A stretch of 64,000 nt of DNA from Candidatus Methylacidithermus pantelleriae (GTDB taxonomy: Bacteria > Verrucomicrobiota > Verrucomicrobiia > Methylacidiphilales > Methylacidiphilaceae), in contig NZ_CAJNOB010000002.1 of NCBI RefSeq assembly GCF_905250085.1, forward strand, positions 1 to 64,000, in the 5' to 3' direction. Below the pieces are notes generated by a model. The model had not been told where the DNA came from and ran no database searches. It was given only the letters and a program-made list of their open reading frames with translations. Both the position numbers and the translations under genes were made by a program. This document shows positions 1-59,032 of the stretch, one piece after another. Numbering within the stretch: position 1 is the first letter of the stretch; every line of letters starts with the position of its first letter.

Positions 1-776
1 CCCCACCACCAGAAGGGATCCCACCAACCCCACCCCATCCAAGGCCACCAATCCCACCACCATGGCCAGAAGTCATACGCTACAAAAGGGGGATACGCAT
101 AGGTGTATGCATAACCCGGGGAACTAAACTCACCATAATCGTATGAATACTCGTAGTACCCTCTGGAGTTGGGTCGGGTTGCCGGATAGGCCTGCCGCTT
201 CGCATGCTCAAAAGAAGTCTCCGATGGGCTCGATCCCGTGGGTGGCTGTCCCTGGGTCGTTCGCTCCTCCGTAGCTTGCTCCTGCACAGGACTGCTCAAA
301 GCATTCTGAACAATGGGAATCATCTGATTCCGGACATCGCTAGCAAAACGCTCAAAATCGTCTGCCAAGCGCCGGATTTCTTCAATCTTTTGAGCCTGCA
401 AATAGCTAACAACCTCATCAGAGGCTGCAAGATGGTGGCGGTAAGCAATCTCTTCTTTGGCTTGGTCAATTTGAGCTACTATTTCTCGAGCCTGCCTCGC
501 TTTATCCAACGCACGGCTCCCCAACTGGTCTAGCTCCTTCAAGGTAGCCTCTGTTATCTTTGCCCGATCCGGCATGAGTGATCGCGCCTGCTCAGAAAGC
601 TGCACCAGCTCCTCCCTCTGAGGGGCCTTGGCGAGCAAGCGATTGAGCGTGCGGGAGAACTCCCCTCTGGCCGCCTCCCGCTCGTCACCCTGGTACGCTT
701 GGTAAATAACCACTCCCGCAGAAAGAATAGCCAGCACTCCAGCACCTAGTAGGAGACCCAAGCGTATGGTTTTCAC
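1..776 (-). CDS. Membrane-anchored or secreted protein with Tyr/Trp-rich tail (3' end outside window)
   Basis: I read this gene on the minus strand from a GTG at 774-776, preceded by a GGAAGGG-like ribosome site; the frame stays open for about 258 codons to the window edge. Residues 5-25 are hydrophobic (signal or anchor). Residues about 30-160 are charged and helical, rich in Glu, Gln, Arg and Leu, and look coiled-coil-like. Residues 160-200 are a Pro/Ser/Thr/Gln linker. Residues 207-228 hold nine tyrosines, and residues 237-258 hold 13 tryptophans in 22 positions (for example WPWWWDWWPW). The C-terminus is not visible. I do not recognise the family. Being read as one continuous frame of even composition before the aromatic tail argues for a real gene. 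Function unknown; an envelope role is an inference from the hydrophobic N-terminus. Confidence 0.7.
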   Translation of the reverse strand, partial: MKTIRLGLLLGAGVLAILSAGVVIYQAYQGDEREAARGEFSRTLNRLLAKAPQREELVQLSEQARSLMPDRAKITEATLKELDQLGSRALDKARQAREIVAQIDQAKEEIAYRHHLAASDEVVSYLQAQKIEEIRRLADDFERFASDVRNQMIPIVQNALSSPVQEQATEERTTQGQPPTGSSPSETSFEHAKRQAYPATRPNSRGYYEYSYDYGEFSSPGYAYTYAYPPFVAYDFWPWWWDWWPWMGWGWWDPFWWW

Positions 777-1407: not shown

Positions 1408-3384
1408 ATGCCTCAAGGAGCCAATCGCCCCCCCTCCCCCCATCGGACTCGATGGATGGGTCAGCGACCCAAACTTCCCCCCCAAGCTCCCCATCCCTGG
1501 GTGGGGCTAGCCATCCAGATCCTTCTCGCTCTGGCTTTGGTTTGGTTTTGGCAGCAGAGCTTTCATGAAGCCCGGTTTACGACCATCCCCTACAGCGAGT
1601 TTAAGAAGCTTTTGGCCCAGAAAGAAATTGCCGAGCTTTGGATCGGGCCTGATGAGATACGGGGACGCCTAGAGGGTCCCTCGGCCAAGGGAACGATCGG
1701 GAAATTCTTTCGAACGGTTCGCCTGGAAGACCCGACACTTGTTCAAGAACTCCAATCGTCGGGAGTTCGATACCAGGCCACTCGTCCAAGCTTTCTTGGG
1801 ACCCTCTTTTTTTCCTGGATTTTACCGCTCATGGTACTTCTGGGTCTCTGGGTCCTCTTTACTCGACTGGCAGGGGTGGGGGGTGGCGCTCATCCCCTCC
1901 TAAGCTTTGGGAAAAGCCGGGCGTTACTCATTAAAGGAGAGCGCACAGGGGTTACCTTTGAGGATGTGGCCGGCTGCGACGAAGCAAAGTTTGAACTTCA
2001 AGAGATTGTCGATTTTTTAAAAAACCCGGCTCGTTATCGATCCCTCGGTGCCCGAATCCCAAAGGGAGTCCTTTTAGTGGGGCCTCCCGGAACCGGAAAA
2101 ACCCTTCTGGCAAGAGCCATAGCAGGAGAGGCAGGGGTTCCCTTTTTTTCGATCAGCGGAAGTGACTTCGTAGAGATGTTCGTGGGTGTGGGCGCCGCTC
2201 GCATGCGTGACCTTTTCGCCCAGGCCAAAAAACAGGCTCCCTGCATTATTTTCATCGATGAGCTAGACGCAATCGGGCGACAAAGGGGGGCCCGAGTCAT
2301 CGTCAGTCACGACGAGCAAGAGCAGACCCTTAACCAACTCCTTGTCGAAATGGACGGGTTTAACCCCAACGTGGGGATTATCGTTCTCGGAGCCACCAAT
2401 CGTCCGGAAATTCTTGATCGGGCTCTCCTACGCCCGGGGAGGTTTGACCGGCAGGTGGTCGTCGATCTTCCTGATCTGGACGGAAGGGAAGCGATCTTGC
2501 GAGTCCATGCTCGGGGAAAACCCCTGGATAGTCACGTCGATTTGCGCAGAATCGCTCAGGCAACCCCTGGCTTTTCTGGGGCCGATCTAGCCAATCTGAT
2601 CAACGAAGCGGCGCTCCTTGCCGCGCGGCGCAACGCAAAAGCGATTACTCAAGAAGACCTGGAGGCCGCTCTGGAAAAAATCGTCGCTGGTCCGGAAAAG
2701 CGAAGCCGCCGGCTTCGAGAGGAGGAACGCAGGCGGGTGGCCATCCACGAGGTGGGACATGCGCTTGTGGCGGCTTTTAGTCCCGCTGCCGATCCTGTTC
2801 GAAAAATTAGCATCGTTCCTCGTGGCAAGGGAGCACTCGGATTTACGCTTCAACTCCCGACCGATCAGCATTATCTGGCTACGCGCAGCGAGCTTTTGAG
2901 TCGCATCCGCTGCGCCCTTGGAGGACGCGCAGCCGAAGAACTCGTGTATGGAGAGCCAAGCACAGGGGCCGAAAATGACCTCGATGTGGCCACGGTTCTC
3001 GCGCGTCAGATGGTATGTATTTATGGGATGAGCGAGAGTGTAGGACTAGCGCGTTGTGCCTCGCGAAGTCCTTCGCCTTTTTTAGGGGATCTCAACGGGT
3101 TGTGGAGTCGAGATTGCAGCGAAAAAACGGCGCAACTCATTGATACGGAGGTCAAAGCCATCCTGGAGCAGGCTATGGCGGAGGCCAAGCAAATCCTGTC
3201 GGAACACCAAAAGGAACTAGCGGACTTAGCGGAGCTTTTGCTCAAAAAAGAGACCATTGAAGGGGAAGAATTTTACCGGCTCCTCGGTCAATCACCGCCC
3301 GAACCGAGCCTGCGGCAGCAGGGGGTGGTTCTTACTTCCGAGCCTCCGGTCATTGATTCTCAACCCCTTGGAAAGCCGGATTGA
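1408..3384 (+). CDS. ftsH: ATP-dependent zinc metalloprotease FtsH
   Basis: FtsH is a membrane-bound AAA+ protease that extracts and degrades damaged or regulatory proteins. The protein is 658 residues from ATG 1408, chosen because AGGAGAAAG lies at 1391-1399; a TTG 57 bases upstream is in frame but has no such site. Two membrane segments (about 32-49 and 131-152) flank a short external domain. The AAA domain has Walker A GPPGTGKT (225-232), Walker [13 protein letters not shown] and the second region of homology ending RPGRFDRQ. The zinc motif HEVGH is at 447-451. Order and length are normal for the family. It is the first gene of the plus-strand housekeeping run and is followed 13 bases later by a thiamine-diphosphate enzyme. 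Confidence 0.96.
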
Positions 3385-57389: not shown

Positions 57390-59032
57390 TTACGGCTGTA
57401 CCGCAAGCCCAAAGATCCGTTCTTTCCGCTCAAAAAGGCGAGCCGCCTTGCCCAAAGGGGAAGGGAAAACCTCTGCAAACGATTCTTGTATTCGCCTCCA
57501 AAGCAAAGGGTGGGTTTCGTTCATTCGAGTTTCTGCCTCTTTGCCATCGAGGCTTTTCCGTTCAAAAAGCATCCACCGCACGTTCTCCCTTTCCAGCTTG
57601 CGCCAGGTTTCGTCTTGGCTCCAGGCAAAGTCGGGAAAAAGATAGTAGATCTCCCACACTGGGGACTTTTTGCCCAGAAGGACATAGAACCCTGGGCCAT
57701 AGGGCGCAATCAGGGTATCGTTCTTTTGACCAGAGTTCGCCAAAGGAAGGAGATACATCTTCTGGATGAGTTCACCCTCTTGCCGAGGAAGCCACAGTTG
57801 ATCCTTGCCAACCCTGTAGGGAAAGAATTGCTCACGTGACAGGCTGTACTGCAGCCAAGCATTTTCTGGCCACGTGGCCCAGGCGCTCCACACCAGCAAT
57901 ACTCCGAGGGCCAACCACATGCCTAAGCGTCTCCTATTTCCTGAGAGGGTGTTCAACAACGCCGGTACAGCCACAAGGAAAGGAAAAACACCCAGCGCTA
58001 GGTGCTCTCGATCCGCCCGAGAATAGATGTAATGAAGGTACGGGAGCCCAAACGCTAGTGACGGGAGAAAGGATGGCGCAAAGGTCTTTTTGCTTTTTTG
58101 GAGAAGGAACCAGACCCAGACCAGGATGAAGAAGAACGGAAGAAATACAAAGAGCCAAGCCATCGCATAATCGGGAACTTCGTTCCAAAGGCGAGGCCAG
58201 GAAACCCGCCAGGGCCAAGGAACCGGCAATGCAAGGTTGGTCGATCCTAGCAAGAGAAGCCGCTCCATAAAATACAGGTTCCGTTCCCAATAACCGGGGA
58301 CCCAAACCAAGGCCAAAAGCATCGGCAAGTAGCCCAGCACGACTCCCCGAGAAAAGTTAATAGCAGCTTCCCAACCCTCCCTTGGCTGTTCAGCCTTTCT
58401 CCCGACCCAAAAAAGAATTCCGAAGGCTACCAGAGCGTACAGTCCATGGTTTCTACCCACCCAGGCAGCCCATCCTGTAAAGAGGCCCGCCCAAGTGGCC
58501 TGGGACCGGTTGGCATCCATTTGCCACCGGGTTGCTACCCAAAGGCCCACAAGCACCACAAGCTGGTCAATCGCACGATAAAAGGGAAAAAACCAAAGCG
58601 CCAGGATGACTCCAAAAACTCCTTTTTCGATTGCCGAGGAAAGTAGCCCCTCTGCCACTGCCAACCCACACCAAATTCCGATAGTAGTAACCACACAAAG
58701 AAAACGGCGCAGGGAAAGGATTCGTTCTCCAAAAACCTTTACCCAAGGAAGGGCCAGTGGTAACGCCCAGGATCGTAAGCCTGAAAATCACGCCCTGGGA
58801 ATTCCCCACCGGCTGTGTGAACCACTCCATACCAAAGAAAACCTTCATCTGCCGGGTTAAAGCCAACGTCCCCTTTTCCCAGGTAGAGGCAGCAGGCAAG
58901 AATCGTGGCGTAGAGAGCCCAAGCCCATTGTTTCCTGACAAAGACTGACCAGCGGTCCCGCACCTTCTCCCGAGAAAAACGCAAAGGCTCCCAGGATATC
59001 CCGTGACGCGTTCGTTTGTGCCAAATAGTCAT
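57390..59032 (-). pseudogene. Polytopic membrane glycosyltransferase-like gene split by a frameshift
   Basis: Two minus-strand frames together make one protein. The first, from ATG 59032, runs to a TAA at about 58739 and carries GFNPADEGFLWYGVVHTAGGEF and RDFQAYDPGRYHW, the first-loop motif of GT-C-like membrane transferases. The second frame continues from about 58750 as LALPWVKVFGERILSLRRF, then VVTTIGIWCGLA, and runs to 57390 with about ten membrane segments. A one-base shift near 58755-58765 joins them. It may be a true frameshift, a programmed one, or a sequencing error. The C-terminal 130 residues are soluble, with ERKSLDGKEAE. Function by family: transfer of a sugar from a lipid carrier. 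Confidence 0.7.

Follow-up and report, generated by a model that had tools for sequence, protein, structure and literature searches.

What kind of protein carries a tyrosine-rich segment followed by an even denser tryptophan-rich one? The first bases of the DNA analyzed here raise this question. This window spans bases 1 to 64,000 of contig C2 in the 71-contig, 2,459,655-base assembly of Candidatus Methylacidithermus pantelleriae, the third genus of the Methylacidiphilaceae (PMC8170126). The minus-strand frame at 3-776 is open throughout and encodes 258 residues from GTG 776. It contains 9 Tyr in 22 residues (207 to 228) and 13 Trp in 22 residues (237 to 258). A preliminary description of the locus had reported this clean frame and these densities, and our residue counts agree with it exactly. 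The binomial P value is about 6e-16 for the Trp density and about 2.5e-9 for the Tyr density, and the rest of the window's 56 putative genes reach at most 5 Trp or 4 Tyr per 22 residues. The runner-up in Trp density, with 5 Trp in 22 residues, is a 434-aa frame at 57393-58694 on the minus strand. GTG 776 is more likely to be the start than TTG 833, because AGGAAGGG precedes it on the coding strand and the resulting VKTIR aligns with the MKTMR of a full-length paralogue on contig C34. The features are collected in Table 1.

Table 1. Features of the aromatic-tail gene in the window
Feature	Position	Strand	Basis or remark
Aromatic-tail gene, 5' part (258 codons)	3..776	-	Truncated where contig C2 ends; start GTG 776, TTG 833 possible
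N-terminal TM/signal-anchor helix (predicted), residues 6-26	699..761	-	Kyte-Doolittle; AlphaFold2 helix 6-50
Helical body, residues 27-161, predicted three-helix bundle	294..698	-	AlphaFold2 pLDDT; invariant columns
Low-complexity linker, residues 162-206	159..293	-	Low model confidence; poorly conserved among relatives
Tyr-rich segment, residues 207-234, 10 Tyr	75..158	-	Composition
Trp-rich segment, residues 237-258, 13 Trp	3..68	-	Composition and alignment; cut by contig end

Base 1 of the window is the end of contig C2. Therefore, the aromatic stretch lies in the middle of the protein and not at its C terminus. The two segments are not successive C-terminal tails, as had first been thought, but are followed by a region rich in Asn, Ser, Arg, and Phe and then by Gly-rich repeats with GGGFHR at their end. 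When the paralogue's tail was used as a query against the genome, it brought up an orphan C-terminal frame with which contig C16 begins (bases 2-505, plus strand). This frame ends in GGGFHGGGFGGFHGGGFHR, with GGGFHR as the end motif, and is 38% identical to the end of the paralogue (E 1e-33 when compared with that sequence alone and with low-complexity filtering switched off). It is the sole orphan C terminus found, and the C2 frame is the sole truncated N terminus. We infer that the two are probably parts of one gene, with the C16 frame as the missing 3' end. The C2 and C16 ends do not overlap. The Trp/Gly-rich middle, about 130 to 140 residues as judged from the paralogue, was found in no contig of the assembly, and the assembly break seems to fall in Trp/Gly-rich DNA. 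The C-terminal GGGF(H/R) repeats would lie beyond the part of the gene in the window and would belong to it through this putative join with C16.

The full-length paralogue on contig C34 of the same genome has 647 aa, including 44 Trp. A tail-less paralogue of the N domain (182 aa; C34 8111-8656, plus strand) lies 110 bases upstream of it on the same strand. This arrangement suggests that the N domain can function without a tail, and the tail-less protein is perhaps a partner. In Methylacidiphilum, all five genomes have a single orthologue of 441 to 448 aa (for example, NZ_LXQB01000052.1, bases 1572-2903), found at E 7e-12 to 8e-17 in an independent single-sequence search. The homology covers the N-terminal TM and helical domain (E 6.8e-77 for the window copy, by a profile that includes that copy itself), and the aromatic columns of the Tyr/Trp-rich region that follows are aligned in seven sequences. 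The Trp-rich segment of the window aligns with PWWWSWWPWWGWGWW of the paralogue and with PYWWAPLWYPWxGWGWG of the orthologues. Identity to the window protein is 62% for the C34 paralogue and 33 to 36% for the other relatives, which suggests that the full-length pair may have arisen within the Methylacidithermus lineage. All six full-length copies retain the aromatic segment, which the preliminary description had named as support for its reading. A Trp run created by a frameshift or misassembly in the last 150 bases, a concern in that the contig does stop at window base 1, is almost certainly not the explanation, because these six relatives share the Tyr-then-Trp region in frame, one of them in the interior of contig C34 and the others in five further genomes, and four of the six sit in single-contig genomes.

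We found no convincing relatives in the seven genomes of the sister genus (g3, presumably Methylacidimicrobium), and a profile search of 62 genomes in all gave none elsewhere in the order. Across the phylum, the N-domain profile found none that was convincing among 388 sampled genomes, and the tail profile likewise none among 338. This N-domain profile also had weak matches at class and phylum level (L033-L037). They lack an aromatic tail, and by eye they resemble a histidine kinase, a flagellar hook-associated protein, and further proteins of helical type; therefore, we attribute them to chance coiled-coil similarity. The sister-genus match of the tail profile, L044, is a Gly-rich frame (E 0.07), and the sister-genus matches to a GGGF(H/R)R-stop pattern fall within other genes or antisense to them. 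In six other Verrucomicrobiota genomes, a WPWWWxW codon pattern never fell in a matching reading frame of at least 90 aa. Plasmids gave no match. Wherever a genome carries the aromatic-tail gene, no other gene was found to end in GGGFHR, a pattern that speaks against a general sorting signal. Pfam-A and NCBIfam gave no match above the curated cut-offs, and none of the sub-threshold helical matches fits the family, so the earlier impression that no named family applies holds. Literature searches returned no paper combining "tryptophan-rich" and Methylacidiphilum, and broader searches of the envelope literature returned nothing. As far as these tools reach, the family is undescribed and narrowly distributed.

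All full-length copies keep the N-terminal TM helix, the helical body, the Tyr/Trp region, the Gly/hydrophobic alternation, and the GGGFHR end. The complete order is TM helix, helical body, linker, Tyr-rich segment, Trp/Gly-rich region with Gly/hydrophobic alternation, Asn/Ser/Arg/Phe-rich region, and GGGF(H/R) repeats. Residues 6 to 26 are the sole part with a Kyte-Doolittle mean above 1.6 over 19 residues. The hydrophobic N terminus of the preliminary description is thus a predicted TM helix, and hydropathy shows no second such helix in any copy. AlphaFold2, with alignments of only two sequences each, predicted a confident helical bundle followed by a low-confidence tail. The pLDDT is mostly above 90 in the helical body, which supports a helical body, described earlier as coiled-coil-like, and the body has 21 invariant columns in an alignment of eight relatives. 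Foldseek found no match at E 0.001 or better among solved PDB structures. VIA Z scores of up to 11.3 to assorted unrelated helical bundles are within the stated background for helical models, and a sequence search of solved structures gave nothing convincing.

The aromatic region and the Gly tail are under purifying selection. Between Methylacidiphilum species, the aromatic region has a dN of 0.010 to 0.097 and a dN/dS of about 0.04 to 0.08; dS is saturated in the diverged pairs, and in this region it rests on the non-Trp residues, since only one codon encodes Trp. In the most diverged pair (G003 and G009), the dN of 0.097 in the aromatic region is below the 0.208 of the N domain and far below the 0.623 of the part between the aromatic region and the Gly tail. 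The tail is basic (pI 10-11) and free or nearly free of Cys, and acidic residues are scarce in the Methylacidiphilum tails. The Methylacidithermus copies differ from these in spacing and in having an acidic Asp/Tyr-rich part. The paralogue has 44 Arg and 0 Lys in the tail versus 16 Arg and 5 Lys in the body. This Arg-over-Lys bias is significant in five of the seven copies, the exceptions being the window fragment and the G005 copy. Relative to the other copies, Trp and Arg are up and His is down in the paralogue.

The aromatic-tail gene stands alone. Across a gap of 631 bases is a divergent gene for an FtsH-type AAA protease (ATG 1408 to 3384, plus strand) with FtsH_ext, AAA, and Peptidase_M41 domains. 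Downstream of the C34 pair lie ABC transporter genes, and upstream, at a distance of some kilobases, an rRNA operon. Two Methylacidiphilum settings compared in full are identical, with an L,D-transpeptidase gene on one side together with a flavodoxin-type reductase gene that is not common to Methylacidithermus. Because the settings differ between the genera, the neighbors say little about function. Convergent to the Methylacidiphilum orthologue is a Pfam-less gene for 218 to 246 aa (L014 9609-10262, minus strand; L018 5855-6592, plus strand) with a conserved MDYKHF start.

From these features we infer, with a probability of roughly 0.4, a protein with its anchor in the inner membrane, an exported bundle of helices, and an Arg/Gly/aromatic tail that associates with itself and serves as a scaffold or tether in the envelope. 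The single N-terminal signal-anchor helix would hold the protein in the inner membrane, with the N terminus inside and the C terminus outside. The helical bundle of about 130 residues would project into the periplasm, where it probably oligomerizes, possibly also with the tail-less paralogue. The bundle would display the long low-complexity tail with its Tyr-rich, Trp/Gly-rich, Asn/Ser/Arg/Phe-rich, and GGGF(H/R) parts. The tail would most likely act through many weak aromatic and cation-pi contacts and through (Gly-X)n beta pairing, so as to stick to itself and to envelope surfaces. In favor of this model are the single N-terminal hydrophobic helix, the confident bundle followed by a low-confidence tail in the structure predictions, the retention of the tail by each of the six full-length relatives and by the C16 frame, the purifying selection on the tail, its Gly/hydrophobic alternation with low-confidence predicted strands, its basic, Cys-poor, and mostly Arg-biased composition, and the tail-less paralogue. 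Against it count the weak positive-inside signal of the Methylacidiphilum copies, the lack of a significant Arg bias in two copies, and the solitary position of the gene; the N-terminal helix might also be removed as a signal peptide instead of serving as an anchor. The envelope location put forward in the preliminary description is plausible from the N-terminal helix, the one feature that points to it.

The main rival is that the Trp/Gly region is a membrane-inserting module, whose Gly/hydrophobic strands with interfacial Trp and Tyr enter the outer membrane, so that the protein links the two membranes. Trp and Tyr enrichment is typical at membrane interfaces. The Gly/hydrophobic alternation is stronger than in shuffled versions of this region (P at most 0.0006), and the full-length model has three short strands in this stretch (234-240, 245-252, and 260-265). 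However, confidence is below 50 for nearly all of the strand residues, the strands are too few for a barrel of their own, and no stretch of the tail reaches TM hydropathy. We consider outer-membrane insertion rather unlikely. Metal binding and oxidative chemistry are less likely. Methanotrophs need copper. In an acidic habitat rich in metals, the His and aromatic residues of the tail could bind a metal such as copper or iron, either to supply it or to detoxify it. The Methylacidiphilum copies, with 13 to 17 His and GGGFH repeats, fit such a role, but the full-length paralogue has only 8 His, the repeat His being largely replaced by Arg (FRGG instead of FHGG). The near absence of Cys, and the failure to find the family in the seven genomes of the presumed methanotrophic sister genus, also make metal binding improbable. 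Less probable still is that the Tyr-rich segment, by virtue of its Tyr density, hardens the envelope as a site of oxidative dityrosine cross-linking or relays electrons through its aromatic residues, since no peroxidase, oxidase, or cytochrome gene lies beside any copy and there is no cofactor motif. The initial idea of an extracellular binding or electron-rich structure likewise finds no specific support, given that no known cofactor domain was found and that the repeats of the paralogue show the His-to-Arg change.

A membrane-anchored protein with a low-complexity tail is a kind already known. DUF3300 proteins are exported and have a low-complexity tail ending in Gly-rich repeats and Arg. 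Our family is like them in this tail, but its N-terminal domain differs, and five family members gave no Pfam match to DUF3300 at E up to 1. TolA/TonB-type envelope-spanning proteins have an N-terminal membrane anchor and a helical or extended periplasmic part, and the family resembles them in both respects. However, it has no Pfam similarity to them, no C-terminal folded domain, and no adjacent Tol or Ton genes. Another kind is the sticker-and-spacer low-complexity proteins of condensates, for which aromatic residues have been described as stickers (PMC12677899). The family shares with such proteins Gly/Ser/Asn spacers, putative aromatic and Arg stickers, and few Lys. Unlike them, it is bacterial, membrane anchored, and dominated by Trp in one segment, and it is not homologous to them.

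The anchored, self-associating tail could take a more specific form, which we regard as speculative and unlikely: a lineage-specific periplasmic sticker-and-spacer scaffold, in which the membrane-anchored Trp/Tyr/Arg/Gly tail would form a condensate or beta-rich gel in the envelope of extreme acidophiles. The locus belongs to an apparently undescribed conserved family of two genera of volcanic acidophilic methanotrophs, in which an exceptionally dense Trp segment is kept by selection. Should the tail indeed self-associate outside the cytoplasm, condensate- or silk-like sequences would have in this family a bacterial counterpart adapted to acid.
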